From a virus, in the IMG/VR virus record IMGVR_UViG_3300021364_000079, positions 1 through 35,295 of that record: a stretch of 35,295 nucleotides of DNA; one strand, 5' to 3'. The position numbers were made by a program, and so were the translations under genes. Below are positions 3,745 to 35,295 of the stretch, piece by piece; the stretch's first letter is position 1; every line of letters starts with the position of its first letter. The notes beneath the pieces are model-generated. The model did no database searches and had not been told where the DNA came from. It saw only the letters and a list, made by a program, of their open reading frames with translations.

Positions 3745-3919
3745 TAAAACCACCAAACTGCTTGACATCATTACAGTAGACCTGTATAATAAGAAGGTAA
3801 TCGTGAGAGGGGAAGACCAATCAGTGATTACCTTCAAATGCTCTACTATTAACGAATTAGTTGAATTAGTAGACCAGTGTAAGAAAATGCTTAACTCTGA
3901 CCGAATAATTGTCAGATAA
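3737..3919 (+). CDS. Small hypothetical protein containing an internal promoter
   Basis: 60 aa from the ATG at 3737, overlapping the stop of the upstream gene by 8 nt. The protein reads plausibly (beta strand VDLYNKKVIVRG, then helix STINELVELVDQCKKML). A consensus promoter lies inside its 5' end (3762-3790), so a transcript from that promoter would lack the first codons. In-frame GTG codons at 3803 and 3824 could then start a shorter product. The stop ends one base before the tRNA-Leu gene. Function unknown; the start is the least certain part. Confidence 0.5.
   Translation: MLDKTTKLLDIITVDLYNKKVIVRGEDQSVITFKCSTINELVELVDQCKKMLNSDRIIVR
3762..3790 (+). promoter_or_regulatory. Consensus sigma70-type promoter P3 for tRNA/bilin reductase unit
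   Basis: Perfect TTGACA (3762-3767), 17-nt spacer, perfect TATAAT (3785-3790). The following AAGGTAATCGTGAGAG resembles the sequence after the -10 boxes at 34493 and 35017. It is placed to transcribe tRNA-Leu, the 88-aa gene, the bilin reductase and tRNA-Thr as far as the terminator at 5049. Confidence 0.8.
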
Positions 3920-11100: not shown

Positions 11101-14100
11101 TGCTGGTATCTCAAGTCTCTAGAGTCTGGTAACGAGATTTACCAGAGAATCACGATGTCTGATGCATCGAGAGGAAGTCTTTATGTCAACAAACCACCTC
11201 GCACTCCTGACTCATTCTTCTATAGAGCAGATGATACCAGAGAGAAAGAGGATAAGTCATACAAATTACGTTATGTCATTCCTAACTATCGTGATGATGT
11301 TAGAGACCCACTTGAAGGTTTCGCAATCAGAATTAGGACTGACGAGAAGAGAAAACTTCTACCACAAAAACTACTCCTCAAACCAGTTGCTGCTGGTGTC
11401 CAGAAGGATGCTACATTCTTTGAAGAAGGTCCATCACCAAGAGAAAGACTTGGTGTTGCAGCTGCTCTAACTGAGTATGACCCATACAACCCAATCTACG
11501 CTAAGCGTATTGAGGGCACAAAGACAGAATCTAACGTATCATTCACCATTCAGTCTGCAAGGACCAATGATGATGGTTACCTAGAGATGACCGTCTTTGA
11601 CCATGGTCTAGACCTTGAGTCACTCAAAGCAGAAAGATTTGTAACCGTCAAGGTTGGTCAACCACAAGGTGGCAACGGTGACTTTGTTGAAGGGTCTGTT
11701 GTCACATGGTATGGTGATTATACTGGTAGTGCAACAGTCCACGCATGGTTTGGTAATGAGAATGTTGAGGGTGGTCTACAAGAGTTTAACTATCTTATTC
11801 TAAAGGGTGTCCAAGGTGAATTAGACTTTGCTGATAACAAGCAAACCTTCATCAGACAAACTATTGCAGGTCAGGCAGATGTTACTGCTGAAGTTCTAGA
11901 TAGACCTAACTTCGGTAAAGAAGACAAAGATGAATATCTCTATGGTGTTGAGGCATCTAATGTCTACTGCATCACTCCTGGTGATGTTGTTACTGACGAT
12001 GCTGCTAGACAGTATAGAATTGTCAGTGTCGAAGATGTATCTGACCTAACTGAAACATACTATATCTACAGCATTGAAGAGATTCAGAGAAGAATCCCAC
12101 GTCAGCAAGATGGTGTTTACTATCTAACTGTTGTCCGTGGTGACATTTCACCTCTACCTCTTGGGTCTGGTGTTGGCACAAACTTCAGAAAATTCAAGTT
12201 TAGTCAGCCCGTATCTAGACTCTATCCTCTCACTTATAAGAATGACCCACTACTCTTCCAGTATGATGGTAGTGATGAGCAGGGTGGTAATCAGGATGCT
12301 ACACTCCTCGACCCACCTGCAGCATCTTGTGCCGCTGACAATTATATCCATGGTTTAGTTACAATCAACGATGCCAAGAATTCTGCTACCAAAGAAATGG
12401 TCTTGGATTTCATTAACAATCCTGGATCTGGTGAGCATACTTACACTGGTGTAAATGCTATCAAGGCACAAACTGGTGCAGCATCATCTGGCGCAGAAGA
12501 GCGACTCATTCCTATTGCGGGTGACTCTGGATTCCCACTAGAGCAGAAACTCTATGTTGAATTACGTCGTCCATCTATCGCTCGTGCTGGTAACCACACG
12601 TTTGAATACCTTGGTTTCGGTCCTGGTAACTACTCAACTGGTTTCCCTGCAAGACAGACAGTTATTCTAACTGATGTCCAAGACTACTATGCACAGGCTA
12701 AGAAGCAAGATGCTGGTATCGTCTTCTACACTGGTATCAACTCCAATGGTGAATTATATATCGGTAATCGTAAGATTAATGCTATTACTGGTGAAGAAGA
12801 ATTCCTAGATGCACTCATCCTAGAGGAAGATGATTCGGAAGATGGTGAATTCGGTAGTCTCGTTACGGTCTTTGAGGACCCCGTAACGTTTGAGAATATC
12901 ATTACTCTAAACGCTCCACCTAATCTAACTAACTTCTTCAACTCACCTGTCATCGTCAACGTTGACCCTGAGTTTGAAGCGAAGATGACTCCTCCTTCAC
13001 TTAGAATTGTATCACGTCCTGGTGATAGACAAGGTGTAGTCCCTGGTGATGATGACCAACTACTTGACACTACGAGAGCTGGTGACATCTTAATTGATAA
13101 AAATAGAGTCAGAGCTGCCATCTTTGACCTCAACCCAAGAGGCACTCAGAGATATACTCTTAGGTCTGGTGTTGACAATACGACACCCAACCAGGATACT
13201 TCTGGCACAAAAGCGAGATTTAGTTCTTCACAAACATTATCTTTTGGGTCTAGTGTCCCTCTATCTGGCGACATTCTATTCAAGGGTGGTGAAGTAGGTA
13301 ATACTGGATCACTGGGTTGGATTTATGCTAACTCTTACACACCATTCACTCTAAGTGCAAGTCCTGGTAATGAGTCTGCTATTGATATCACTGGTATTGA
13401 ATTCTTCCCTAATCTGAATGTTGTTAAACTTATCTTCCAAGTTGGTAAGGTTAACTTTAGCTCAACTAATCCTGGCGCATCGCTTGGTATTACATTAAGT
13501 AGTCAAATTAAGATTACTGGTGGTCAAGACAGACTTGCAACTCTTGAAGGTGTCCATACCGTATATAATAATGCTGCTGAAGGTTATGAATACCTAGAGT
13601 CTAATGGATATGTTTATCTCCTCACTGAGAGAGCATCTGAGGCAGTATTAACTGGCAATGCTCCTTATATCTCTTCGACAAATCCAACTGCACAAGGAAA
13701 TCTAGAGATTTCAATCGGTGTTTCTGCATGGAAGGAAACTGGGGTTATTGGTGCTGAGGCACTAAGGACAGAAACCGCTGTATATGGTGATTATAAACTA
13801 GGTATCAACACTATTGCTAGAGCAGTTTCTACAGATTATGAAGATGGATTTGTTTCTACTGCAACATATCCAAGAGCAAACCTTGATGTTGTTGGTAACA
13901 CATTTATTAGTGGTAGGACTCAAACCACACTATCTGATGGTAGTGGTGGCACACCAGTAGCAACTAAGCACGCATTTATTGTTGGTGGTGACAGTGCAAA
14001 TCCCGATTCTACTGCTGAATTTAGAGTTACAACTACAACACTATCTCAAGATGGACGCACTGAAGGTGCAACTGCCGATATTGATAATGGTAGAGTTGGT

Positions 14101-16968
14101 ATTAACGTCAATGACGCAGCACTAGATAAAAACTTCGTTGTTTCTGGTGACGCAAGAATTACTGGTGACTTCACCTTTGAATCTGACATTGATGTTGATG
14201 GTGGCGATATTCGCTCTACTGCTGCTACATTCAACATTGCTAATCAGACCAGCACTACATCATTGAATCTCACTGGTTATGCTGTAAATGTAGCGATTGC
14301 TGACCTAGCAACGGCAGACCAAACAATCAATATTGGCACTGCGGTAACAGGCACAAGCACACTCAATGTCCACACAGATTCTATTAATTCTACTGTTAAT
14401 GTAGGCACGGTTGAAAATACTGGTGCTGGAAATATTTCCAGAATCACTTTAGGTGGTGCATTTGCTAACAAGCAGGCAAGTATCTTTAACATTAAGAATT
14501 ATCAGACAATCGTTGATGGCATTCTCACTATTAATGGTGGAGAAATCAATACAACATCTCCTGATGGTGAGTTTACTCTCTTCCCATCTGGTATCACCAA
14601 GTTAAATATTGGTCTATCAGTTGGTGAGTTGACTCTTGGTGGTGTTGCTGGTGAGACTCAAATCAGAAATGGCATTAGAGTCCAAGGATCTGCATTCTTC
14701 GAGTCAGACATGACTCAAAATGGTGGTCTTAAGAATACTAATCTCGGTATCGATAGAAACATCTTCGGCACGATTCGCATTGCTACCTTGGCGAGAAGTA
14801 GTAACGTTGCAACGGTAACTACTATTGACCCACACAACTTAACCACTGGTGATACAGCAGAGATTGATTCTAGTGTAGATTCATTCAATACTGTAAATGC
14901 AGTATCTCTAACTGTTGTAGACAACACCACATTTACTTATAGCAATACGGGCAGTAATTTCTCTGCCGCAGCTGCTACAGGTACTGTTATTACTGGTGTT
15001 GGTCTCAATCAGTCAACAGGCACACTTGCAAATCTAAACATCGACTTCTTCAGTGTTGTTGATGACTTTAGTGGAGTTGTCAATATCACTACAGTAACTG
15101 CTAATAAGATTATTGTTGATACAAGTGGTCACTTCTTCAATACTAATGAGTCAGTCCAGTTTATTGATGTTGGTAATTTAACTGGTGTCAATACGACTTC
15201 TACTTATTATATTGAAAGCAGAGATGCTCTAGGATTCGTCCTTAAGGATGTTAATGACAACACGATTACCGTTTCTCTTCAGCAAGGTAGCACCGATGCT
15301 GGCACTGCAAGAATGGTTCTTGCAGAGACAACTGTTGATACAGTTGGTGGACAACCATGGGGTGATGATTCATATAAGAATCAGATTCTGAATGGTGTCC
15401 AGACATACTTGCTACCAATCAGCAATCCATCTGGCATTGGTATCAGTGAGTTGTATTTGGTTGGCACAGAAATTGTGCAGACGGTCAACTTCCCAACAAC
15501 TTATGTCCCAGATTCTCCTGTCCCATATACCGTTGAGGTTATTAGAGGACAAAGAGGTACCGCACAATCTGCACAACCAGATGGACAAAAGGTTGTAAGA
15601 TTGATTGAGCAGCAAAATGCTTCTTACATCTCACCTAACCCAGTCACTGCTCTTGATACTACAATTAACGTTGCAGAATTCTCTGCTGCTATCAAGGCAG
15701 GTGACCTATTCCGTCTCAATAAGACGGACTTAAACACTGGTGGTGAATATACAAGAATCACGGTAATTAACCCTGCTGATGCTCAGTCCTTCACTATTAA
15801 TAATGGTGATTTCGGCACCACTGTCTTGCCTAAGGACCCACTTGAAGTCTTTAAGACTATCTCTACCACTGGTAACACACAAATTAGTGGCGACGTTGTA
15901 ATCGGTTACGATACTACGAAACCATTCATCAACGCTGCAAATGACCAGAATCTTGCTGATGCTTACGGCAAGACTAATAGTGAAGCAACTGGTAGCACAC
16001 TAGAAACAACTGGTGGTGGTAATCTAACGGTCCACAACTCAATCGAGTTGAGTGGTAATACTTCTACTTCTACTCCTGAAAAACAATACTTCGTTATCAC
16101 TAATGGCACTCTACCTAAATTCTATGTTGAGTCTGCTTCTGGTGACACAAGTCTATACAATGGTGCAGACCTCAAGATTTTCAAAGATTCCTTCTTTGCA
16201 ACTGGGTCATTCGACAAAGGCAGGACTAACAGTGCAACTAATATCGCACTTGAGGTATTGGGTGCAACTGGTAACACTAAGATTGCTGGTACACTAAGGA
16301 CTGGTGACGACTTTGCAGTTGGCACACTTGCTAATCCTGCAAATCCTGAGAGTGGAAGCAATGCTCATACCTCTAGATTCACAGTTGATGCACAAACTGG
16401 TGACACATACGTTGGTAGATATCTAGAAGTCAACGGTGTATCTTCTGCAAATCCTTCTGACGCTACTGAGATTGTCCAAATCAACAACTTGGGCGTCAGT
16501 GGTAATAAACCATTCACATTCAGGCAAAATGCTTCTATTGAGGCATTCGGTCACGAAAACTTCTACAACGCAAACGGTGGTAGAAAGACGGTGTTTATTT
16601 CTACACAGGGCAATACAGATGCATCTGCTGAGTCACTAGAGTCTAACTTACAATATCTCGTCATTCCTTCATCTACACTTGTATTGAGATTGCCTAACGA
16701 TGCAATCACTGGTGATACAATCAGAATTGTAGACGTTGGTGGTGCTCTCAACTTTGCTAATAATCTAGTTGTTAGAGCGCCAAGTGGTATTAAGGTCCAA
16801 GGGTCAGATACAGGTAGCAACTTGGGTGGTGTTTCTAACTATCCTGGTGGTGAATTAGTTGTCAACACTCCGAATGCTGCTTTCGGTCTCATCTTTGTGG
16901 GTGACCAAGATTTAGATGGCAACGGTATTCCCGATGCATTCCAAGGTTGGTGGTTAATGGAGATTTAA
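5131..16968 (+). CDS. Giant (3945-aa) fibre-like virion structural protein
   Basis: One uninterrupted reading frame behind a late promoter. Residues about 20-560 look like a right-handed beta-helix of the pectate-lyase type: entry motif NRGNSPTRPFLTIQRA, later rungs such as FNVTGGCYFWQFTILDGD and DAFIQNVSIFAVGF. Residues about 690-1720 are helical with five KCKRDIG-like repeats (near 700, 907, 1073, 1203 and 1449), each followed by a DL..GN turn, alternating with SC-x-VR-x-TID repeats. Residues about 1720-2900 are mixed beta. From about 2910 the chain becomes a Gly/Thr/Asn-rich beta repeat (TGDFTFESDIDVDGG, TLNVHTDSINSTVNVG) typical of fibre shafts, ending in GWWLMEI. No peptidase or chaperone domain was seen. 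Very large structural proteins followed by collar fibres occur in cyanomyoviruses; host recognition or a fibre base role is inferred. Confidence 0.85.
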   Translation: MPLTKLENLISSKTGRYLYVSPDDFNASDALDNRGNSPTRPFLTIQRAFLEVARYSYVPGQENDRFDQFSIMLSPGNHYIDNRPGILNPEEIAPFAYNQATQEWEDESIVDLSNPNNILYKFNGPNGGATIPRGTSLVGMDLRRTRLHPLYVPDPADSDIGRTTLFNVTGGCYFWQFTILDGDVEPNSPLYDAQEGIGKVYYQPGNTLTTIPYYSHHKICNFEFADREDLGLLYRKIARAFSQFQPTIDDPGEFEQRPQENRIVGPLQDAIRIDTIEVNNVAGTTALDVTVKTKTNHGYYVGQAVAMANLRSTLPAGASEPIPLSNDPLTGVFSVREISITDPKEFTYRVIGKNAAAVGLGDKIGTPIAPPDLDTNAITQAEIDSVESASPYVFNVSIRSTWGICGIHADGSRATGFKSMVIAQYTGVSLQRDDRAFIRYDEFSNTWNQASLTDAFATTPYHAKGDAYWKDDWRNFHVKASNDAFIQNVSIFAVGFADHFLMESGGDMSITNSNSNFGNTSLHAIGYKGYAFSQDQGGYISHIIPPKKVTTTTKKYQYFTFDQTKIRGNSALDTSLGTYNLVRLYLANDESNDPLQKPATTVNGFRLGAQSHDKIYVKLDPATGFTGSIREAELAPAGYRKFDVALSILSPTTNNAVVSNNDQDAANLLDLNRDFIASEVYGYITRKYPYLLTKEGLTIGKCRRDVGYILEAVANDLRVGGNVNSVQAGQAYYTGNQLDFIEGEREETLEAFSYARSLAVAAMRNWEFRIENCSTTLNNDVVTIPAAITTIGIVEGMSVTATPAGGQNNPIPAGTYVKEIISTTQIRLGNANDTDTVNATATIQATGPAAGGITLNFELNQPKFASSSGRAFDAGTLITLNKDFIAEEALILAKQWDPSTTVPDETKCKRDIGLILDGLVTDLRTFGNAGIVDAATSYVGAPSRYFDAKNLILSNRREIIDKAAAKLAIEYPDFYYGGSGFSNGGDAQTNVYSRYKDSYRLIQQNKQHITDYATAEVAVNHPDFYFPDDQQTDNGSRFADSYRLIKQNKTEIVQAAYDEIALQHPGFVNPDPAACLRDLGIFVDSIALDVFTGANRYTRLFTLEYFNGPGANSLSGEEAETITAFTKAGQMMKDAVTNQLTVKDLTITADSTTGSNTDPSSCANVRSTIDSLTTIVTSTISAGNTNGLVGESASAIITDGESKCKRDIGYFIDAISTDLTTLGNSYSIDFIKQYFVEGAVNGKILTFTNSAGTTLLNRADRIYNGVDTTSANGVGATFRVTRDSNGVVDSVTILEGGYGYAATDLVTIPGGKIGGVDIADDITVTVSTVEQAWITGGLQGEEAPSITAYTAAVEAMKLAINNQLFVKDLTLTGDPQPGNPGSGLSVFGTPGVTTNNQDTQSCSNVQATLDTLSELIFTRIRQGDMVTGTATNPALPEINYGSAPTFQEKCKRDIGIVVDAIAEDLALGGNYNIIQATLSYFDSTGNTLINNGLAGELAQSVTAFEEARQLCFKAVTNQLNVRDFDISEGPAELGVPGPNIPNDNPNSCLDVRNSIDTLFSVLIDKLNNGTLALPAVNYNAGSESLAGELNISVYAYKKVRDLAILAMRNWRTGDGQDTDPLYVKDPTNPLDLQIDATIDTSTAGIPRCADVAYTIATEFDILIEALENTGPLPPRNSGSDEYIVKYAPQTDDSITVDTSNNKCASTKDAIIEKMRVIDSIIRNGVDAEPLVSQLVNTSDFATRATLFRVGGANPHNMETGTPVRLVPVAANDSVDKRLIRLPKGFDTNTKYYVIAPGKITQPEDYSSGGATAQFNDSQTFMLATSIENATAGNYIYSSETTSISPDIKIEVHQYLTDVNYDLHRYTCSLVSSRVFETTTNHVFDTAINGVQVQQVFFYPLEENLINGEAVGAALDTLPTKTSGDRLEIDRPYYVGRPATYTKNNEFSLYLTVQNAIDKQNAVQFNFPSGQSFHVFATKKRSPLGYDPAQQCWYLKSLESGNEIYQRITMSDASRGSLYVNKPPRTPDSFFYRADDTREKEDKSYKLRYVIPNYRDDVRDPLEGFAIRIRTDEKRKLLPQKLLLKPVAAGVQKDATFFEEGPSPRERLGVAAALTEYDPYNPIYAKRIEGTKTESNVSFTIQSARTNDDGYLEMTVFDHGLDLESLKAERFVTVKVGQPQGGNGDFVEGSVVTWYGDYTGSATVHAWFGNENVEGGLQEFNYLILKGVQGELDFADNKQTFIRQTIAGQADVTAEVLDRPNFGKEDKDEYLYGVEASNVYCITPGDVVTDDAARQYRIVSVEDVSDLTETYYIYSIEEIQRRIPRQQDGVYYLTVVRGDISPLPLGSGVGTNFRKFKFSQPVSRLYPLTYKNDPLLFQYDGSDEQGGNQDATLLDPPAASCAADNYIHGLVTINDAKNSATKEMVLDFINNPGSGEHTYTGVNAIKAQTGAASSGAEERLIPIAGDSGFPLEQKLYVELRRPSIARAGNHTFEYLGFGPGNYSTGFPARQTVILTDVQDYYAQAKKQDAGIVFYTGINSNGELYIGNRKINAITGEEEFLDALILEEDDSEDGEFGSLVTVFEDPVTFENIITLNAPPNLTNFFNSPVIVNVDPEFEAKMTPPSLRIVSRPGDRQGVVPGDDDQLLDTTRAGDILIDKNRVRAAIFDLNPRGTQRYTLRSGVDNTTPNQDTSGTKARFSSSQTLSFGSSVPLSGDILFKGGEVGNTGSLGWIYANSYTPFTLSASPGNESAIDITGIEFFPNLNVVKLIFQVGKVNFSSTNPGASLGITLSSQIKITGGQDRLATLEGVHTVYNNAAEGYEYLESNGYVYLLTERASEAVLTGNAPYISSTNPTAQGNLEISIGVSAWKETGVIGAEALRTETAVYGDYKLGINTIARAVSTDYEDGFVSTATYPRANLDVVGNTFISGRTQTTLSDGSGGTPVATKHAFIVGGDSANPDSTAEFRVTTTTLSQDGRTEGATADIDNGRVGINVNDAALDKNFVVSGDARITGDFTFESDIDVDGGDIRSTAATFNIANQTSTTSLNLTGYAVNVAIADLATADQTINIGTAVTGTSTLNVHTDSINSTVNVGTVENTGAGNISRITLGGAFANKQASIFNIKNYQTIVDGILTINGGEINTTSPDGEFTLFPSGITKLNIGLSVGELTLGGVAGETQIRNGIRVQGSAFFESDMTQNGGLKNTNLGIDRNIFGTIRIATLARSSNVATVTTIDPHNLTTGDTAEIDSSVDSFNTVNAVSLTVVDNTTFTYSNTGSNFSAAAATGTVITGVGLNQSTGTLANLNIDFFSVVDDFSGVVNITTVTANKIIVDTSGHFFNTNESVQFIDVGNLTGVNTTSTYYIESRDALGFVLKDVNDNTITVSLQQGSTDAGTARMVLAETTVDTVGGQPWGDDSYKNQILNGVQTYLLPISNPSGIGISELYLVGTEIVQTVNFPTTYVPDSPVPYTVEVIRGQRGTAQSAQPDGQKVVRLIEQQNASYISPNPVTALDTTINVAEFSAAIKAGDLFRLNKTDLNTGGEYTRITVINPADAQSFTINNGDFGTTVLPKDPLEVFKTISTTGNTQISGDVVIGYDTTKPFINAANDQNLADAYGKTNSEATGSTLETTGGGNLTVHNSIELSGNTSTSTPEKQYFVITNGTLPKFYVESASGDTSLYNGADLKIFKDSFFATGSFDKGRTNSATNIALEVLGATGNTKIAGTLRTGDDFAVGTLANPANPESGSNAHTSRFTVDAQTGDTYVGRYLEVNGVSSANPSDATEIVQINNLGVSGNKPFTFRQNASIEAFGHENFYNANGGRKTVFISTQGNTDASAESLESNLQYLVIPSSTLVLRLPNDAITGDTIRIVDVGGALNFANNLVVRAPSGIKVQGSDTGSNLGGVSNYPGGELVVNTPNAAFGLIFVGDQDLDGNGIPDAFQGWWLMEI

Positions 16969-27924: not shown

Positions 27925-28103
27925 TTGCTGCTCTCGTTAAAGAGTATGAATGGTTATGCCATGATGACTTTGACCCAGAGCAAGACCCCACTCCAGAGGA
28001 GTACCTTGACAGTATCAAGGATCTGTCCTATGATGAGTTGGTAGAGGAGACCCAGACCGACGACCTCTTCACCCTTGATAATTTCATGGATGCTTACTCA
28101 TGA
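27900..28103 (+). CDS. Small acidic hypothetical protein
   Basis: 67 aa, very acidic and helical (HDDFDPEQDPTPEEYLDSIKDL), with no basic patch or Cys pair. It resembles small acidic proteins found widely in cyanophage accessory regions. The last bases overlap the next start (ATGA). Its reading frame also contains the possible promoter at 28006. Confidence 0.65.
   Translation: MAYQKEEIIAALVKEYEWLCHDDFDPEQDPTPEEYLDSIKDLSYDELVEETQTDDLFTLDNFMDAYS
28006..28034 (+). promoter_or_regulatory. Possible internal sigma70 promoter
   Basis: TTGACA (28006-28011), 17-nt spacer, TATGAT (28029-28034, one mismatch), about 66 nt before the start at 28100. It lies inside codons for LDSIKDLSYDEL, so it may be coincidental. 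Confidence 0.3.
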
Positions 28104-28504
28104 CCTACGAAGCAACTGTTGAGTTTAAGTTTGATGCAACCTTCACACCAACCTATGGGACATCCTCCTGGACTTCAGATGATTTTATCCCTGAAGAGCA
28201 TTATCTCATCACTGCACCAGCAGCAGACCTTAACGCCAAACAATATTTCAAACTTTTTGAAAAGTTTCTCCTCTGTGTAGGAATGGACCCTGCATCTATT
28301 CGTTCTGGTGCTATGTCATTGGTATTCAATGACTGTGTGCGTGAAGATGAGCAGCGTAAGGTATGTAATGAGTATGAATTGACTATGGATGAAGACCTGG
28401 AGAAGAAATACCAGGAGTTTATGAAGCGTGATGCAGAATGGGCACGACTGAATAAGAGTGAACCAAAGATCAAAGGTGATGATAGTCCATGGGATGCAGA
28501 ATGA
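28100..28504 (+). CDS. Hypothetical protein
   Basis: 134 aa, starting within the upstream stop (ATGA). The N-terminal half is beta-like (YEATVEFKFDATF), then a helix AKQYFKLFEKFLLCVGM, then a highly charged C-terminus ending DDSPWDAE. No catalytic motif recognised. The next gene starts within its stop. Confidence 0.7.
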   Translation: MTYEATVEFKFDATFTPTYGTSSWTSDDFIPEEHYLITAPAADLNAKQYFKLFEKFLLCVGMDPASIRSGAMSLVFNDCVREDEQRKVCNEYELTMDEDLEKKYQEFMKRDAEWARLNKSEPKIKGDDSPWDAE

Positions 28505-28659
28505 GAGATAAAATTGTTTTCATTCTTCCATTCTTTCAGGTCATCATTGCACTGGTGACACTTTCTAAAATACCCGAACCACCGCCACAGTATTTCTGTA
28601 AGCAAGCACAAGATACTTATGGCAATTATGCAGACTTTATTATTTGTAACCCACAATGA
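28501..28659 (+). CDS. 52-aa membrane-anchored protein
   Basis: ATG at 28501 overlaps the upstream stop (ATGA) and its own stop overlaps the next start the same way. Residues 5-20 are hydrophobic (IVFILPFFQVIIALVT), followed by a Pro-rich bend (IPEPPPQYFC) and a short polar segment with a second Cys near the end. A signal anchor with the two Cys outside the membrane is a reasonable reading. The layout of start and stop supports a real gene. Confidence 0.65.
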   Translation: MRDKIVFILPFFQVIIALVTLSKIPEPPPQYFCKQAQDTYGNYADFIICNPQ

Positions 28660-29033
28660 GTATCCCTAATTTTAAATCTAACCACGACTGGGAAGCATTT
28701 ACCCAAATCTTTGATAGTCAGTGGCATTGTAAGCGAGCACTGCTGAATCGTGTCAAGGATGATATGTTCCCTGGTTATGAGTGGTCTGCACTCACATCAA
28801 AGACTATTGAAGTCATCAATGACATCGTAACAAGTATGTTGTATGATGTTGATCGTAAGTTTAAAGAGACACATCAGGACTATAAGACTGAGGATGATGA
28901 GTTATTCATTCCTTATCGCTCATTCAAAGAGAATGTGCTTGAGGCATTGAATGAAGCACTCACACCCTATGAGTTGCAATACAAGAATGAATGTGATACA
29001 CTAGCCTGTGCAGACCACTTGACTGATGAGTGA
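28656..29033 (+). CDS. Hypothetical protein
   Basis: 125 aa, helical with many aromatic residues (HDWEAFTQIFDSQWHCKRALL, PYRSFKENVLEALNEAL) and an acidic end. No motif recognised. It is coupled to both neighbours by 4-nt and 1-nt overlaps. Confidence 0.7.
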   Translation: MSIPNFKSNHDWEAFTQIFDSQWHCKRALLNRVKDDMFPGYEWSALTSKTIEVINDIVTSMLYDVDRKFKETHQDYKTEDDELFIPYRSFKENVLEALNEALTPYELQYKNECDTLACADHLTDE

Positions 29034-29527
29034 TGAAAGAGTTTGATTATGACCTGGATTATAAGCAACTTGACTTCACAGATGCAGAAACTCGCAAACT
29101 TTATCGTATTGGAAGGGGAGAGCAAGGAGTGCTACTGGTACGCCCTTACACTGACGATATTCGACCTTATTGGAGGTTTAGAAGTATCCCTGTAGCAGAG
29201 GACTCTTCTAGGACAATTTACAACCTGTATAACAAATACAAGGAGCGTAAAGATTTCATCGGTATGGATATGTGTCGCAAGTTTCTAGAGATGGGTTTCA
29301 CTCGCTCTAGACGTTATGCTAATCATAAATCTGGTCGTAAATATGTAACCAAGCCACCTTATTACCACACTGGTGATAGAGGTGGCACTCCCATATTGCC
29401 ACAAGAAACTGATGCTCTCACCAGTGAAAAAGCAAAGTGTGCCTCAATCTTTAAAGTTGTTAGAGACTTGGTTGCTGGCGACCCTGTGTATCAACAAATG
29501 AGAAAAGAATGGAGGGCATCAGAATAA
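29033..29527 (+). CDS. DUF4385 family protein
   Basis: 164 aa from the ATG at 29033, which shares its A with the upstream TGA stop (TGATG); a GTG at 29030 is an alternative. The sequence carries the family hallmarks FDYDLDYKQLDF, YRIGRGEQGVLLVRPY, PYWRFRSIP, MCRKFLEMGFTRSRRYANH and KSGRKYV. DUF4385 is a conserved family of unknown function in bacteria, fungi and phages. The invariant Arg/Lys-rich and Gly-rich segments suggest a nucleic-acid or nucleotide ligand, which is inference. Full length for the family. Confidence 0.85.
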   Translation: MKEFDYDLDYKQLDFTDAETRKLYRIGRGEQGVLLVRPYTDDIRPYWRFRSIPVAEDSSRTIYNLYNKYKERKDFIGMDMCRKFLEMGFTRSRRYANHKSGRKYVTKPPYYHTGDRGGTPILPQETDALTSEKAKCASIFKVVRDLVAGDPVYQQMRKEWRASE

Positions 29528-30177
29528 TGTATCCTACTACTATCGTTGAAAACTTTTTTAGTGACCCAGATGCTATTGTAAAATATTCAGAAAATCTTGA
29601 ATATTTCCCCTCTCAATCTGGACAGTGGCCAGGTGTACGCTCAAAACATATTGCAGAATTAGATTCCAATCTTTTTCAGCATATTGGAGATAAAATATAT
29701 TCTTTATTTTATCCAGCACCACCAGAAAGATGGTCTCTAGATATGTGGTTTCAACTTATAACACCATATCACGAAGATAAGTGGCACCCTTCCAATAGAG
29801 GATGGATTCATCGTGATGTATATTGTAATTTTGGTGGAATTATCTATTTAACAAAAGACCCAGAAAAAGATACTGGCACCTCAATTTATAGAGAAGCGTT
29901 AGGATATTCTTATCAACCAAAGAATGAAACTACCATCAAGAAAAATCATTATTTGGGACATGATGTTTTAGAAAATGAATTGTCTGAAGCATGGCAAAGA
30001 AATCAATCTCAATACTTACAAACAGTTAGTGTTGAAAATGTATACAATCGTATGCTTTTGTTTAATCCTAGTGTATTCCATGGAGTGAAAACTTTTGGGA
30101 CTAAACCAAGACTTACTATTGCTTTCTTTTCAAAGGGAGAGATTGGTAATGATATACATCCACCATTGTATAGATAG
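29527..30177 (+). CDS. 2-oxoglutarate/Fe(II) oxygenase-like protein 3
   Basis: 216 aa from the ATG at 29527, sharing its A with the upstream TAA (TAATG). Triad: H95-R-D97 (WIHRDVYCN), H185 (SVFHGV) and R195 (KPRLTIAFFS). Strands GGIIYLTKDP, GTSIYRE and NRMLLFNPS align with the protein at 25805, as does the N-terminal DPDAI and GVRS. It has an extra 40-residue insertion (KNETTIKKNHYLGHDVLENEL) between strands, perhaps a substrate lid. This matches proteins annotated as 2OG-type or DUF6445-like in phages; substrate unknown. Confidence 0.75.
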   Translation: MYPTTIVENFFSDPDAIVKYSENLEYFPSQSGQWPGVRSKHIAELDSNLFQHIGDKIYSLFYPAPPERWSLDMWFQLITPYHEDKWHPSNRGWIHRDVYCNFGGIIYLTKDPEKDTGTSIYREALGYSYQPKNETTIKKNHYLGHDVLENELSEAWQRNQSQYLQTVSVENVYNRMLLFNPSVFHGVKTFGTKPRLTIAFFSKGEIGNDIHPPLYR

Positions 30178-30195
30178 TATAGAGGCAGAGATACT

Positions 30196-30603
30196 ATGGG
30201 AATGTTTGATTATTTCAGGTCATCATATGACCTAGGAGAAGAATTTACAGACGTTGAATGTCAAACAAAAGACATTGAAGATGGCATTGGTGGCACAATG
30301 TCTCACTATTGGTTAGACCCTGCAGGATATCTTTACATCATTGATTATTCACATACTGCCGACTTTGTTGAGTTATATCCTGGAGATGAAGGATATAATG
30401 AGGACAGAAAGTTTTTAAACTTTCAGTGGCAACCTAATGGCACTAGAGGTAAAGTATCACCATATCACCTAACAAAATATATTGAAGTGTATCCTGCTGA
30501 CTGGAAAGGTGAGTGGGAAGATTGGCCTCGCTTGCGTATTCACTTCAAATATGGTAGACTAATGGACTGCGACATCATTACAGGTAGGACCTATGGACGG
30601 TAA
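30196..30603 (+). CDS. Hypothetical protein starting MGMFDYF
   Basis: 135 aa, 18 nt after the previous stop with a GAGG ribosome site. Tyr/Trp-rich beta protein: YWLDPAGYLYIIDYSH, FLNFQWQPNG, RLRIHFKYGRLMDC. The MGMFDYFRSSYDLG opening is common in small phage proteins of unknown role. No active-site motif. It overlaps the next gene by 11 nt. Confidence 0.75.
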   Translation: MGMFDYFRSSYDLGEEFTDVECQTKDIEDGIGGTMSHYWLDPAGYLYIIDYSHTADFVELYPGDEGYNEDRKFLNFQWQPNGTRGKVSPYHLTKYIEVYPADWKGEWEDWPRLRIHFKYGRLMDCDIITGRTYGR

Positions 30604-30934
30604 TAGCAAGACTACACTCCACCACCGACGCGATGGATTCTCTGCTCACGGAGATTATTTCCCTGGAGTTGATGTAGAGATTACTATTGACAGCACAGAT
30701 GCTGACGTGTATACTATGGTGGACTACTTCAAACGATTCCTTATTTCTGCTGGTTACTATGAAGAAAGCTTCATCGATGCGTGCTACAAAATCACAGAAG
30801 AGCACGAGCTCAAAGAGCAAGTCAAGAAGCAAAAAACTAGAAGCCACCACAGACACCGCATGGGAGAAACTGGCATCGACTCCAACAACTTCACCTTCAA
30901 CATTGGAGACTACGACACCCAGGAAGACTACTGA
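30593..30934 (+). CDS. Hypothetical protein, possibly frameshifted into the next gene
   Basis: 113 aa. Residues 1-80 look conserved-protein-like (FSAHGDYFPGVDVEITIDSTD, VDYFKRFLISAGYYEESF). After an A6 run at 30831-30836 the sequence turns into His/Arg-rich and then Asn/Asp-rich residues (TRSHHRHRMGE, DYDTQEDY). Removing one A would continue the chain into the frame of the gene below, giving KQKLEATTDTAWEK. The C-terminus is therefore doubtful; N-terminal function is unknown. Confidence 0.6.
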   Translation: MDGNSKTTLHHRRDGFSAHGDYFPGVDVEITIDSTDADVYTMVDYFKRFLISAGYYEESFIDACYKITEEHELKEQVKKQKTRSHHRHRMGETGIDSNNFTFNIGDYDTQEDY

Positions 30935-31130
30935 TAAGTTTCCTTGGGAATCTTTTCCCATCCGACTTGACATCAAGAAGGAGAATCGTGTATGCTGGTT
31001 TGAGTGTGAAGACCACCTGAATAAACTTATTCTACGCGAGCAACTGACACCAAAGGACTATACTATTAGCACCAATGGTGTTAAGTTGGTAGGACTTCCC
31101 ACACCTAAGCGTAGGAGAAAAACCAAATGA
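30777..31130 (+). CDS. Basic protein with CWFECEDH domain; start uncertain
   Basis: 117 aa from the ATG at 30777, overlapping the previous gene by 158 nt in another frame. An earlier ATG exists at 30759. A Lys/Ser/Thr-rich linker is followed by a compact domain: DKFPWESFPIRLDIKK, NRVCWFECEDHLNKLI and a basic tail PTPKRRRKTK. The long overlap is unlike the 1-26 nt overlaps elsewhere in the cluster, so the domain may really be the C-terminus of the gene at 30593 joined through a frameshift at the A6 run. Function unknown. Confidence 0.55.
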   Translation: MRATKSQKSTSSKSKSRSKKLEATTDTAWEKLASTPTTSPSTLETTTPRKTTDKFPWESFPIRLDIKKENRVCWFECEDHLNKLILREQLTPKDYTISTNGVKLVGLPTPKRRRKTK

Positions 31131-31282
31131 AACTGAGAGTAACTATGAGACAATTCGTTGATAAGAATGGCAACACCTGGGAGTGGGAGGAGACTGAAGA
31201 GACTCGTCAGGCACTCAAGAAGTTGCATAAAACTTCGGCAGAGACAAAATTACACACACCACCTACTAAACCAACAAAATGA
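31127..31282 (+). CDS. 51-aa hypothetical protein
   Basis: ATG at 31127 overlaps the upstream TGA as ATGA, and its own TGA overlaps the next ATG at 31279 the same way. The product begins MKLRVTMRQFVDKNGNTWEW, then a charged helix EETEETRQALKKLHK and a Thr/Pro/Lys-rich tail. The double 4-nt overlap is strong evidence that this is translated. Function unknown. Confidence 0.7.
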   Translation: MKLRVTMRQFVDKNGNTWEWEETEETRQALKKLHKTSAETKLHTPPTKPTK

Positions 31283-31500
31283 AGACACTTACACTAGACG
31301 ATTACAAACGCGCAGGTGAAGAGTTTTGGCCTAAGTATTGGTATGTTGCCAAAGAATTAGGTGAAGACGCTAAACCTGAGCAGATTCTCAAGGTTATGGA
31401 AGCAGTTGGCACTGTTGCCCTTAAAATTGCAGTCGAAGATAAACTAGCACCATTTGGATTTAATAAGAAGAAAGATGACGGAGACACAGCAGAAGCGTAA
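31279..31500 (+). CDS. Small hypothetical protein
   Basis: 73 aa, helical (LTLDDYKRAGEEFWPKYWYVAKELGED, EQILKVMEAVGTVALKIAVED) with a charged tail. It is coupled to the previous gene and overlaps the next by 26 nt. No recognised domain. Confidence 0.7.
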   Translation: MKTLTLDDYKRAGEEFWPKYWYVAKELGEDAKPEQILKVMEAVGTVALKIAVEDKLAPFGFNKKKDDGDTAEA

Positions 31501-31771
31501 AGTAAAACTATCTGACTCTTTCGGTGGCACCGTAGAGAAAGATATTCCTGATGATGTAGTGTGGATTGATGATGCTTTCTACATTAAAAAGACTCGCTTC
31601 GGTCTCTATACATCTATCTTAAGAAATCCTCTGGGTCAGCACTTTATCACTGGTGCTACAGAAGAGGGAGTGCTCACAGTATCACGTTGGCATCTCAAAT
31701 CTATACAAGAGGGCACACTCGATGAAAATACTAGAGTGGTAAATAGTGGCGTTGTTGGTGGTAAACTATGA
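31475..31771 (+). CDS. Small beta-rich hypothetical protein
   Basis: 98 aa from the ATG at 31475 (MTETQQKRK); earlier codons in the frame would overlap far into the upstream gene. Strands DVVWIDDAFYIKKTRFGLYTSILRN and GVLTVSRWHLKSI suggest a small beta fold. It overlaps the next ATG by 4 nt. Function unknown. Confidence 0.65.
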   Translation: MTETQQKRKVKLSDSFGGTVEKDIPDDVVWIDDAFYIKKTRFGLYTSILRNPLGQHFITGATEEGVLTVSRWHLKSIQEGTLDENTRVVNSGVVGGKL

Positions 31772-31998
31772 AACCTACAGAAAACTATGAGCAGTTGATT
31801 GAGCGATTCACCAAACGGACTGCACAATTAACTGCTAGAGCAGATGAGTTGTATGATGCATACTCTGAATATGTTAAGATTCAAGAGGACCTAACACGTT
31901 TGGTTGGGTCACTACAAGCAGTAGAATACCTAGCATATGGTAAACTGCCTGGTGATGGAAATCACGATGGCATGAAAAACCATAAACCTGAGAATTGA
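31768..31998 (+). CDS. Small coiled-coil hypothetical protein
   Basis: 76 aa, starting in the previous stop (ATGA). Helical with coiled-coil-like heptads (YEQLIERFTKRTAQLTARADELYDAY), ending in a polar Asn/His/Lys tail. No domain recognised. It is the last gene before a 77-nt AT-rich gap. Confidence 0.65.
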   Translation: MKPTENYEQLIERFTKRTAQLTARADELYDAYSEYVKIQEDLTRLVGSLQAVEYLAYGKLPGDGNHDGMKNHKPEN

Positions 31999-32026
31999 AT
32001 AATAAAGAGAAAATTAAGAAATCTCA

Positions 32027-32054
32027 TTTTTTGAGGATTCCCTGATAATATAGA
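32027..32054 (+). promoter_or_regulatory. Weak promoter candidate in AT-rich gap
   Basis: TTTTGA (32027-32032), 16-nt spacer and TATAGA (32049-32054), 22 nt before the ATG at 32076. Other -10 readings (GATAAT at 32044) are possible. It lies in the only gap of this cluster longer than 70 nt. Confidence 0.3.
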
Positions 32055-32075
32055 TATGTTGAATCACCAGACTCC

Positions 32076-32231
32076 ATGTCAGCACCAAAATCCTCAAACC
32101 AACCACTTTCTCAAGAAGAGCAGGAAGAAATGAAAGCACTTAGTGAGGCAATCAAATTCCACCCAGCATCTGTACATCCAGACAAAATGGAGAAATATAC
32201 TGAATACCTTGTGAGGTCTCTGGCAGCATGA
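32076..32231 (+). CDS. 51-aa hypothetical protein
   Basis: ATG at 32076, stop TGA 32229-32231 overlapping the next ATG at 32228. It begins MSAPKSSNQPLSQEEQEEMK and continues as a helix (ALSEAIKFHP, DKMEKYTEYLVRSLAA). The 4-nt coupling with the next gene and the preceding intergenic gap support it as a real gene. Function unknown. Confidence 0.65.
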   Translation: MSAPKSSNQPLSQEEQEEMKALSEAIKFHPASVHPDKMEKYTEYLVRSLAA

Positions 32232-32422
32232 AAAAAATCGAATTGCAAGCACAAATTGAATTTTTAGAGCAAAGAGTTGCTATTCTTGAGAGAGAAAATG
32301 CTGGCACGACTAATGCATTGTATGAGATTGAAAATAGATTGCAAGCACAACTTGATGCCTTGACTAACTATACTATGCTTAATCGTGAAAATCTGGAGAA
32401 ACTAAATGACACAGCAGAATGA
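32228..32422 (+). CDS. 64-aa coiled-coil protein
   Basis: A single predicted coiled coil: IELQAQIEFLEQRVAILERE followed by further Leu heptads, with no other motif. It is probably an oligomeric small protein. It overlaps the next gene by 17 nt. Confidence 0.65.
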   Translation: MKKIELQAQIEFLEQRVAILERENAGTTNALYEIENRLQAQLDALTNYTMLNRENLEKLNDTAE

Positions 32423-32573
32423 CTCACTTATTGTAGAAGAAACTGAAGACGGTGGACTAACAATCTCATGGGATAAAGAGGACCCAAAATATTCTTGGAT
32501 GAATGACTTGACAGAAGAAGAAATCAAGAGTATGCTGGCAGTAGCAATCCACGAGATGACGGAAAATGAGTGA
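32406..32573 (+). CDS. 55-aa acidic hypothetical protein
   Basis: ATG at 32406 inside the end of the coiled-coil gene, stop TGA 32571-32573 inside the next gene. It reads MTQQNDSLIVEETEDGGLTI, then SWDKEDPKYSWMNDLTEEEI and a short helix. It fills the 143-nt gap between neighbours. The composition (acidic, one strand and one helix, Trp-rich) looks like a real protein. Function unknown. Confidence 0.65.
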   Translation: MTQQNDSLIVEETEDGGLTISWDKEDPKYSWMNDLTEEEIKSMLAVAIHEMTENE

Positions 32574-32844
32574 CCACGCATACACTGACATGGAAATGGA
32601 CCTGATGATTGCTACTCAAGAAGCCAAACAATGGCGTGAGCGGTTTGAATCTCTCAAGAAAAACTATGAGATGCTGCTTGATGACTACGAGAAGTTGCAA
32701 AACATCTATGTAGAAACTGAGGATGAAATGGTTGGTTATCGTGATAGTTTCCTCAGAGAATCTCTCAAACATGATAGAGAAATGACTGAGGTTAAGGCAC
32801 GCATATCGACGCTAGAGGCAATGATGAGGTCTGCTAATGGTTGA
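32566..32844 (+). CDS. 92-aa coiled-coil protein
   Basis: Helical throughout with heptad patterns (QWRERFESLKKNYEMLLDDY, EMTEVKARISTLEAMM). No catalytic motif. Its stop lies at the first bases of the terminator hairpin at 32843, so it is the last gene of the cluster. Confidence 0.7.
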   Translation: MSDHAYTDMEMDLMIATQEAKQWRERFESLKKNYEMLLDDYEKLQNIYVETEDEMVGYRDSFLRESLKHDREMTEVKARISTLEAMMRSANG

Positions 32845-32867
32845 GGGGTTGACACCCCTCTTTTTTT
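32843..32867 (+). terminator. Strong rho-independent terminator overlapping the next -35 box
   Basis: GAGGGGT (32843-32849) and ACCCCTC (32854-32860) form a perfect 7-bp stem with a TGAC loop, followed by seven T. The TTGACA of the next promoter spans the top of the left arm, the loop and the first base of the right arm. Confidence 0.9.
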
Positions 32868-32888
32868 GTACTATAATTACTTTGTAAT
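32849..32888 (+). promoter_or_regulatory. Consensus promoter with inverted repeat, for nuclease-methylase operon
   Basis: TTGACA (32849-32854), 17-nt spacer, TATAAT (32872-32877), perfect consensus. ATTAC-TTT-GTAAT (32876-32888) is an inverted repeat overlapping the end of the -10 box and running across the expected start site. It precedes the ATG at 32900 by 11 nt, so the transcript would have a very short leader. Confidence 0.85.
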
Positions 32889-32899
32889 CAGTTTTCACC

Positions 32900-33616
32900 A
32901 TGACTAACTACATCCGCGTCATTGATGGCGTCACCTACGATTTCAATGACTTCGATGTTACCTGGCAATTCGTGAATGACAAGATTGTCGGCATTGTGCA
33001 AGAGATTATTGACACTTTTGTGCAGTCTCGTAAGCGTCTGCGTGATGGACGAGAGACCTTTGAATCTTATCTACGACGCATTGAAACTGATAAGAAGCAG
33101 CAAACACAGGCAGTCACAAAGCGTGTGCAATATGATATTAACGATGCTCTAGATGAGTTGATTGAGCGTTACAGTCTCCAAGACATTATTAAAGGTGGTG
33201 ATGGGTCTGGTAAAGATTACATGCACGTCCCCACAGAAACTCCTGTAGAGTTAAAGACATCTGGTGGTGAAGATAAGCATGATGCTTGTCTTGGTAACAT
33301 CAGTAGTAGTGTGAAGGTAGATGATACTATTGTGATGAGATATAAATTGACTGGCAATCGTCTCAGTCATTGGCAATGCTTCCGCATGAAGAATAGTGGT
33401 GAGAAGTGGAAAAACTACAATCCCATTCGCTACAAGAAAGACAAGAAAACTGGAGAGTTTCTTGTTGATGCTGACGGCAACAAGATTCGTCAGGATAGCA
33501 GTTATTCCAGTCTGAAAGCACAGGTTAAAGACAAAGACGATATTGTGTGCTATTCTGGTAGCATCGACCTCAAAGACCTCTGGATTTACTACATCAAAGA
33601 AGAAATCAATGCTTGA
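32900..33616 (+). CDS. Candidate PD-(D/E)XK endonuclease (restriction-type)
   Basis: 238 aa. The N-terminal 95 residues are helical (VQEIIDTFVQSRKRLRDGRETFESYLRRIETDKKQQ). A nuclease-like core follows: GKDYMHVPTETPVELKT, where D106 and E117-L-K119 fit the D-x10-E-x-K pattern of PD-(D/E)XK enzymes. A basic beta region (MRYKLTGNRLSHWQCFRM) and SGSIDLKDLWIYYIK come after. The next gene, a DNA methyltransferase, starts within its last codons (8-nt overlap), the usual arrangement of a type II restriction-modification pair. The nuclease call rests on one motif plus context. It could instead be a host-DNA-degrading nuclease protected by the methylase. Confidence 0.6.
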   Translation: MTNYIRVIDGVTYDFNDFDVTWQFVNDKIVGIVQEIIDTFVQSRKRLRDGRETFESYLRRIETDKKQQTQAVTKRVQYDINDALDELIERYSLQDIIKGGDGSGKDYMHVPTETPVELKTSGGEDKHDACLGNISSSVKVDDTIVMRYKLTGNRLSHWQCFRMKNSGEKWKNYNPIRYKKDKKTGEFLVDADGNKIRQDSSYSSLKAQVKDKDDIVCYSGSIDLKDLWIYYIKEEINA

Positions 33617-34487
33617 ATTAAACACTGTCTACAATCAAAACTGCATCGATGGCATGGATGCTATGGATGCTGAATCTGTTGACCTGTGTGTAACCTCACC
33701 ACCGTATGATGACCTGCGGACATACAACGACAGCAGCAAGTGGGACCACGAAGTATTCAAACGTGTTGCTAAATCACTCACCCGTGTGTTAAAGCCAGGT
33801 GGTGTAATCATGTGGAATGTTGGTGATGCAACCATCAAAGGTGGTGAGTCTGGTAGTAGTTTCCGTCAGGCACTATATTTCATGGAGGAGTGTGGATTGC
33901 GTCTGCACGATACTATGATTTACGAAAAGTCTGGCATTGCATTTGCTGCTGGTCCACATAGTGTGAGATACTCACAAGCATTTGAGTATTGTTTTATTCT
34001 GTCCAAGGGCAAACCTAAGACAGTCAATATCATCATGGACAAGAAGAATAAGTGGGCAGGTATCTCCTCATGGGGCAATGCTAAGGCACGAAAGAAGAGT
34101 GGAGAGCTAGAAGATGCTGGCAAGAAGAGTAAAGCAACGCGAGAGTTTGGTGCTCGCACTAACATCTGGCGAATCATCAATAGCGGTGGTTTCGGTCAAT
34201 CTTCCAAAGAAGCATACAAGCATCCTGCAACAATGCCTGAGGCACTTGCGCGGGACCATATCATCTCCTGGAGCAATCCTGGCGACGTTGTTATTGACCC
34301 CTTTATGGGCAGTGGGACTACTGCTGCAATGGCGATTGACCAGGGACGTAATTACATTGGTTTCGAGATTGATGACGAATACTATCAACTATGTCAGGCG
34401 CGTCTCAAGACGCTAGGAGCACGTCTCACGTCCTTCCTGGAGGACACCCAGGAAAGTGGCACAGAGGCGGTTTCCAGCGCCTCCTGA
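33609..34487 (+). CDS. Beta-class DNA methyltransferase (m4C or m6A)
   Basis: 292 aa from the ATG at 33609 (MLELNTVYNQNCIDGM). This start is preferred over upstream codons because it opens the family's N-terminal strand and overlaps the nuclease stop. Catalytic motif IV is T29-S-P-P-Y33 and the AdoMet motif I is D230-PFMGSGTT near the C-terminus; the order IV then I defines the beta class. VLKPGGVIMWNVGD and NYIGFEIDDEYY are further family strands. SPPY is commoner in N4-cytosine enzymes, but N6-adenine cannot be excluded. The Lys-rich middle (about residues 140-205) is the likely target-recognition region. The 3' end holds the hairpin and start of the next promoter module. Confidence 0.9.
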   Translation: MLELNTVYNQNCIDGMDAMDAESVDLCVTSPPYDDLRTYNDSSKWDHEVFKRVAKSLTRVLKPGGVIMWNVGDATIKGGESGSSFRQALYFMEECGLRLHDTMIYEKSGIAFAAGPHSVRYSQAFEYCFILSKGKPKTVNIIMDKKNKWAGISSWGNAKARKKSGELEDAGKKSKATREFGARTNIWRIINSGGFGQSSKEAYKHPATMPEALARDHIISWSNPGDVVIDPFMGSGTTAAMAIDQGRNYIGFEIDDEYYQLCQARLKTLGARLTSFLEDTQESGTEAVSSAS

Positions 34488-34520
34488 TGCCCTATAATTA
34501 CAAGGTAATCGAGAGACACA
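34486..34520 (+). promoter_or_regulatory. Promoter module copy A with inverted repeat
   Basis: GATGCCCTATAATTAC followed by AAGGTAATCGAGAGACAC, with -10 TATAAT at 34493-34498 and inverted repeat ATTAC-AAG-GTAAT overlapping it. No good -35 box (best TTTCCA at 34471). A GAGGCG/CGCCTC hairpin (34464-34483) lies just upstream. It matches copy B at 35010 at 33 of 35 positions. Confidence 0.7.
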
Positions 34521-34521
34521 C

Positions 34522-34968
34522 ATGGGCACCCGCGCTCGCATCGGCATCCAACTGGCAGACAATTCTGTCCTGTCTTCCTATCACCACTGGGATGGTTATC
34601 CTGAGTGGTTGGGTCGCATCTTGACCACACATTACAACAGCAAGGATAAAGCATCCTACCTGATTGATGGTGGTGACATGTCCTGTGCCTGGACTAAAGA
34701 GCGTTGGACTGGTAAAGAATTGGCACCATATGTCAAGGAGATTAAAGAGAATGAGGAGTATGGTCCTCAGTATTACTCTCAGCGTGGTGAGGATTGTCCT
34801 CCTCGCCTAGATGATAGCGTCTTTGAGTATCTCGACAAAGACAATAACGAAGAGTATGCTTACATTTGGACTCTCAGTAATGGGTGGGTATGTTACAACA
34901 TGCACTCATTTGACAACCGTAAGCAACCCGAACCCGTACAAATCCCTACGGGAGCACTCGCCTGCTGA
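34522..34968 (+). CDS. Conserved phage protein of MGTRARIGIQL type
   Basis: 148 aa. The opening MGTRARIGIQLADNSVLSSY, then HHWDGYPEWLGRIL, is a pattern common in small proteins of phages and bacteria whose function is not established. A YIWTLSNGWVCYN strand lies near the end. The HWDGYP segment suggests a conserved active or binding site. It is expressed from its own promoter module and stands alone. A short CCCGTA/TACGGG hairpin lies inside the end of the coding region. Confidence 0.8.
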   Translation: MGTRARIGIQLADNSVLSSYHHWDGYPEWLGRILTTHYNSKDKASYLIDGGDMSCAWTKERWTGKELAPYVKEIKENEEYGPQYYSQRGEDCPPRLDDSVFEYLDKDNNEEYAYIWTLSNGWVCYNMHSFDNRKQPEPVQIPTGALAC

Positions 34969-35009
34969 CCAGTTGGCAGACTGTCCACCATTTCCCCACA
35001 GGGCACCAG

Positions 35010-35044
35010 GATGCCCTATAATTACAAAGTAATCGAGAGACACC
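35010..35044 (+). promoter_or_regulatory. Promoter module copy B with inverted repeat
   Basis: GATGCCCTATAATTAC then AAAGTAATCGAGAGACAC, with -10 TATAAT at 35017-35022 and inverted repeat ATTAC-AAA-GTAAT. The ATG is 29 nt from the start of the -10 box, exactly as in copy A. Again no convincing -35 box. Confidence 0.7.
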
Positions 35045-35045
35045 C

Positions 35046-35288
35046 ATGCAACTCCAAACCTCTGCCACTCAAGTTGATTTCTATCCCGTTGGCACTGGTA
35101 AGCGTTACGTCAAGCGCGTAATCTGGCACCCCACTGAGGAGATTTCACAGCAGATGACTTCTTTCTCTACTCGCACCAAGTCTGATATGGTGTATGATGT
35201 AAATAACTACATCGCCAATGGTGCTGAGGTTACTGACTTCAACCTTACCGAATACACTGGTAAGGATTACTCTCCCGTATACTGCTGA
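35046..35288 (+). CDS. Small hypothetical protein
   Basis: 80 aa directly behind promoter module B, with a leader of only about 20 nt. Beta-leaning start (LQTSATQVDFYPVGTGKRYVKRVIWHP), a Ser/Thr-rich middle and a Tyr-rich end (YTGKDYSPVYC). No recognised domain. The last base lies 7 nt before the window end, so it is complete. Confidence 0.7.
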   Translation: MQLQTSATQVDFYPVGTGKRYVKRVIWHPTEEISQQMTSFSTRTKSDMVYDVNNYIANGAEVTDFNLTEYTGKDYSPVYC

Positions 35289-35295
35289 TAACGAG

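Follow-up and report, generated by a model that had tools for sequence, protein, structure and literature searches.

A 35,295-nucleotide stretch of viral DNA (the window, meaning the whole sequence analysed) carries two overlapping genes which, judging from sequence comparison and structure prediction, probably make up a phage-borne type II restriction-modification (R-M) operon with an exchangeable nuclease. This 35-kb viral record resembles the T4-like cyanophages, which are abundant aquatic viruses; scattered pieces of positions 28000-35295 are ~70-80% identical to Synechococcus phages, and no near phage relative was found for the tail-region DNA of the window. The largest gene (5131-16968) specifies a tail-fibre protein of 3945 amino acids, makes up one third of the window and matches PHROG tail-fibre families. 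The gene pair and the elements surrounding it are as follows.

32843..32867, + strand: terminator-like hairpin GAGGGGTTGACACCCCTC (32843-32860) and seven T, putatively closing the upstream gene
32849..32877, + strand: sigma-70 promoter by sequence match (TTGACA, 17-nt spacer, TATAAT; 12/12 consensus)
32900..33616, + strand: predicted PD-(D/E)XK restriction endonuclease (P0001, 238 aa, family type A)
33215..33217, + strand: codon of D106, invariant, predicted catalytic
33248..33256, + strand: codons of E117-L118-K119; E117 and K119 invariant, predicted catalytic
33609..34487, + strand: beta-class amino-DNA methyltransferase (P0002, 292 aa)
33693..33707, + strand: methyltransferase motif IV, TSPPY, residues 29-33
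34296..34322, + strand: methyltransferase motif I, DPFMGSGTT, residues 230-238

The 8-nt overlap between the genes, reported in an earlier sequence-only reading of this DNA, is exact (32900-33616 against 33609-34487), with the methyltransferase start taken as an internal ATG giving 292 aa (a mechanical ORF caller begins at TTG 33543). The strong promoter placed ahead of the pair in the same reading was likewise recovered, with all 12 of 12 positions agreeing with the sigma-70 consensus; it is the best-scoring promoter in the region scanned and ends 22 nt before the first ATG of the nuclease gene, and at most of the related loci, too, a promoter-like site is found ahead of the nuclease gene. 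The nuclease and methyltransferase genes thus form an apparent single transcription unit with a sigma-70-type promoter. The -35 box of this promoter sits in the loop and 3′ stem of the hairpin, so that termination and promotion would occupy one shared sequence, and a hairpin with TTGACA (or TTGACG) in its loop is also present upstream of the nuclease in L007, L008, L011, L012 and L026. Three intact copies of TATAATTACnnnGTAATC occur in the window, at 32872, 34493 and 35017, each shortly ahead of a start codon; two of them run into CGAGAGACAC, and a variant, TATAATAAGAAGGTAATC, lies at 3785. TATAATTACnnnGTAATC resembles a promoter or leader element present in several copies.

Both methyltransferase motifs noticed previously, TSPPY and DPFMGSGTT, are present, and the protein matches Pfam N6_N4_Mtase (E 2.8e-43); since TSPPY precedes DPFMGSGTT, the enzyme is assigned to the beta class, the product of which is N6-methyladenine or N4-methylcytosine. 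The protein is about 70% identical to the methyltransferases of syn9, S-MbCM6, S-H35, S-RIM4, P-TIM40 and S-MS29. It also matches the PADLOC profile 'orphan methyltransferase' (oMTase, 2.9e-83), a label that was set aside because it presupposes the absence of a neighbouring nuclease and here a predicted nuclease gene overlaps. That such methylases are taken for orphans is due to the nuclease, which is fast-evolving and unannotated and matches no family of known function. Purifying selection is evident on both genes, dN/dS being 0.05-0.12 for the methylase and 0.09-0.28 for the nuclease.

Searches of Pfam, PHROGs, NCBIfam, PADLOC and PDB sequences with the window nuclease returned nothing significant, tblastn against phages gave no match and a direct IMG/VR scan no relative, and library and PDB searches detected no sequence similarity between its family and any known restriction enzyme. 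Weaker candidates were rejected, namely a Pfam T7 capsid match (E 0.022) falling under the family cut-off, a PDB profile match for the family (E 0.07), and Rab15_effector (4.8e-6) and similar single-member matches, found in 1 of 39 members with no agreement among them. The family was uncovered only through the genes adjoining known methylases: all five named cyanophages inspected have a hypothetical protein of ~180-220 aa immediately upstream of the methylase, with which the window nuclease shares D106, E117, K119, S121, G132, N133, S136 and K139. Family members are interconnected by BLAST, the syn9-type nuclease corresponds to phrog_11812 (function listed as unknown), and syn9 gp61 is about 20% identical to the window nuclease. 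In a 39-sequence alignment, which takes in three sequences of the E type described below, the only invariant columns are D106, E117, K119, G132 and G220. The three acidic and basic residues previously singled out at positions 106, 117 and 119 are therefore no chance match, as they account for three of five invariant columns and reproduce the PD-(D/E)XK signature D...(D/E)xK in all 39 sequences.

A second ExK nuclease type, the E type (GGD...EIKTG, GATHSPKE), occurs in L081-L085 upstream of methylases ~56-61% identical to that of the window; it was treated separately, having a single weak BLAST link to the other types. An E-type relative in Synechococcus phage DSL-LC02 (L164, 2441-3097) adjoins a ParB-like gene and not a methylase. 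As regards a cellular origin of the nuclease, a plasmid search gave no match and a search of genome contigs gave four, among them L159 (NZ_RMVE01000006.1, filed as Nonlabens xiamenensis). The latter was rejected as a cellular source, as its 188-kb contig is a cyanophage contig, 98.3% identical to P-TIM40 over the 10.4 kb compared, and hence is likely to be phage contamination of a bacterial genome assembly.

Structure prediction assigns the nuclease a PD-(D/E)XK-like fold with a restriction-endonuclease-like core, closest among known structures to type II restriction enzymes, in agreement with the nuclease reading proposed from the letters alone. The AlphaFold2 model of the window protein, built from the 39-sequence alignment, has a pLDDT of 92.6 and a pTM of 0.87, and places D106 just before strand 107-109 and E117 and K119 inside strand 114-121, positions compatible with a clustering of the three residues. 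With VIA-align the top match was NaeI (Z 9.4 over 152 residues, 3.5 A, 11% identity), followed by EcoRV (6.7), SwaI (6.6), DpnI (6.5), NlaIV (6.2) and SfiI (6.0) and, lower, HincII (5.8), BglI (5.5) and PvuII (5.0), where all Z values except that of NaeI lie within the range reached by models without clear relatives. The list nevertheless consists almost entirely of one superfamily with one function, the type II PD-(D/E)XK restriction enzymes. Foldseek gave no PDB match for the window model at E <= 0.001, its best hits being Eco15I, NhoI and PvuII, and the resemblance to NaeI is one of predicted structure (Z 9.4 at 11% identity), PDB searches giving no match by sequence. A second model, of syn9 gp61 (pLDDT 90.0), again had NaeI at the top (9.5), ahead of SwaI (7.6), DpnI (7.5), BglI (7.4) and SfiI (7.0), and its list also holds the resolvases Hjc and RecU at Z 4.5-5.0; the two models are not wholly independent, as their alignments have some rows in common.

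The association of nuclease and methylase was established from both sides. Among 80 IMG/VR loci gathered by scanning with the window methylase, 64 have a member of the nuclease family immediately upstream (53 overlapping, 1 abutting and 10 separated by 28-62 nt), 5 have an E-type ExK nuclease and 11 have neither adjacent, although in one of these 11 (L062) a family member lies one gene away and, in several cases, a contig with no nuclease next to its methylase has one elsewhere. In a collection of 50,697 phage records, a methylase of this kind (>= about 68% identity) occurs in 17, and a relative of syn9 gp61 occurs in exactly the same 17; these represent about six distinct lineages, and relatedness among the 80 loci and among the 17 records means that neither count is a tally of independent events. 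Viewed from the nuclease, a methylase lies directly downstream in 47 of 69 IMG/VR loci, the other 22, without a methylase inside 3 kb, belonging for the most part to a C-type group from fresh water, present on short contigs. In L104, L108 and L103 a C-type nuclease and a methylase are found on one contig ~7 kb apart, so that the pair is split in that lineage. Two further arrangements were seen: an unrelated gene lies upstream of the distant methylases (45-48%) of phages A-1(L) and Mel-JY01, and in L079 a different, second DNA methyltransferase (2144-3010) sits immediately ahead of the methylase, where the nuclease would otherwise be. Homologues of the first gene thus adjoin a methylase in most loci (64/80 and 47/69), and the expectation that a paired nuclease would be unusual in T4-like cyanophages did not hold, pairing being the rule for this methylase clade, syn9 included. 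Taken with the invariant motif and the predicted fold, this conserved pairing supports the interpretation of the two genes as a nuclease and methyltransferase pair.

The partner nucleases sort into types A (that of the window), B (that of syn9), C and D, and their distribution is a pattern that itself needs explaining: the nuclease appears to be exchanged, or to diverge very fast, at a sharp boundary beside which the methylase is nearly constant. In the pairs window/L011, window/L012, L036/L041, L052/L055 and L011/L012 the methylases are 90-97% identical, yet the nucleases are 20-30% identical. Ungapped comparison of window DNA with L011 and L012 gave 32-42% identity over the 60 nt that precede the methylase start as against 87-90% over the 60 nt that follow it, and the central part of the methylase, the presumed recognition region, is nearly identical in all three. 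When partner types were placed on the methylase tree, 10 changes were needed where the least possible is 3; well-supported branches force at least 5 of them for type A. Synonymous divergence is mismatched in both directions, dS between the window and L007 being 0.60 in the nuclease and 0.11 in the methylase, and 0.18 and 0.96, respectively, between L036 and L060. The mosaic boundary at the methylase start and this mismatch show that the two genes move independently.

If the pair acts as an R-M system, the operon would be transcribed early by the host RNA polymerase, the methyltransferase would mark phage DNA at a site and the nuclease would cleave unmarked DNA inside the infected cell, with rival phage DNA as its likeliest target and the host chromosome possibly cut too. 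Granted an R-M pair, we put rival DNA as the main target at about an even chance, and host DNA in that role at a lesser, albeit appreciable, one. Rivals are favoured because nuclease exchange at constant modification better fits a conflict driven by inhibitors, whereas the finding that chlorovirus restriction enzymes do not produce mutual exclusion (PMC7019647) counts against them. Repeated exchange of this kind would fit an arms race against nuclease inhibitors, and we tentatively suggest, as a possibility short of the probable, that lytic cyanophages have a single modification in common but trade nuclease cassettes, the cutter being replaced at the gene boundary time and again in such a race against the inhibitors of rival phages. 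Were this so, the shared and constant methylase would give many phages mutual protection, and restriction would serve as an inter-phage weapon of which the specificity is kept and the cutter replaced.

The same pair could instead be aimed mainly at the host chromosome, for nucleotide salvage and shut-off, the methylase shielding phage DNA, a reading we consider unlikely but one to be taken seriously. Cyanomyoviruses are without denA, denB and ndd of T4, for which a review suggests an undescribed route of host-DNA degradation (PMC2984593); host DNA is gone within hours of infection by syn9 (PMC7852597), which has the pair, and host-DNA cutting has been credited to the chlorovirus enzymes (PMC7019647). 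However, P-HM2 and P-SSP7 degrade host DNA as well (PMC7852597), and P-HM2, which was in the phage collection searched, is absent from the 17 records that have the pair; moreover, digestion of the host alone leaves the repeated nuclease exchange at a constant methylase unexplained. Whether the genes act jointly at all was also weighed, as an orphan methylase could counter host restriction while its neighbour serves recombination or repair, for instance as a junction resolvase. The PADLOC classification, the appearance of Hjc and RecU at Z 4.5-5.0 for the syn9 gp61 model and the ~7 kb separation on some freshwater contigs are in keeping with such a division of labour, but restriction enzymes outscore resolvases and align over a larger part of the protein, one would not expect a resolvase to be swapped on one side of a methylase, and the 17 against 17 co-occurrence and the gene overlap argue for joint function, which leaves separate roles improbable. 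Least probable, and in our estimation very much so, is that the pair or the nuclease alone is a selfish element persisting through homing-like or addiction behaviour and not through benefit to the phage. Such an element could account for the independent movement of the genes seen in the mosaic boundary and the mismatched synonymous divergence, but post-segregational killing has little room to operate in a lytic phage, the fold resembles that of restriction enzymes and not those of the homing endonucleases reported from cyanophages, and both operon structure and purifying selection on the two genes speak against it.

Type II R-M carried by a virus is already known, and R-M pairs occur also in jumbo phages. 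As far as checked, neither this nuclease family nor its occurrence across lytic cyanophages nor its replacement beside an unchanging methylase has been described, and no description of the pair was found in the open-access literature: a comparison of oceanic cyanomyoviruses speaks of an N6A-methylase without mention of restriction (PMC3037559), and in the S-MS29 paper methyltransferases only are named (PMC10436341). The methylases of T4-like cyanophages have so far been regarded as solitary genes; should the pair prove functional, lytic cyanophages own complete R-M systems whose nuclease family is missing from the databases searched. With syn9 in culture, both host-DNA degradation in cyanomyoviruses without the T4 host-DNA nucleases and the use of restriction by phages against one another become testable.

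One close parallel lies in other lytic viruses of photosynthetic cells, the chloroviruses (PBCV-1 and others), where a restriction endonuclease gene is likewise adjacent to a viral methylase, albeit with a eukaryotic host, packaged enzymes and known short sites (PMC7019647); no sequence relation to them was seen. In melbournevirus the nuclease of the Marseillevirus R-M system (mel_015/mel_016) also adjoins a methylase and was also missed by standard domain searches, and exclusion of rivals has been proposed for it; unlike the pair described here, that system belongs to a giant virus of amoebae and is GATC-specific by methylome data (PMC7253447). Jumbo-phage R-M systems are phage-encoded, and a role against rival phages and plasmids has been suggested for them, the review concerned describing neither this nuclease family nor nuclease exchange (PMC7824862). 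NaeI, EcoRV and other type II PD-(D/E)XK enzymes share the predicted fold and the ExK-type signature with the window nuclease at no detectable sequence similarity, and NaeI, the longer protein, aligns only up to residue ~170. The same pair with the same invariant nuclease residues is found in syn9 (gp61/gp62), S-MbCM6, S-H35, S-RIM4, P-TIM40 and S-MS29, where the methylase is about 70% identical to that of the window and the nuclease, annotated as a hypothetical protein, only about 20%, the syn9 nuclease being of type B and that of the window of type A.
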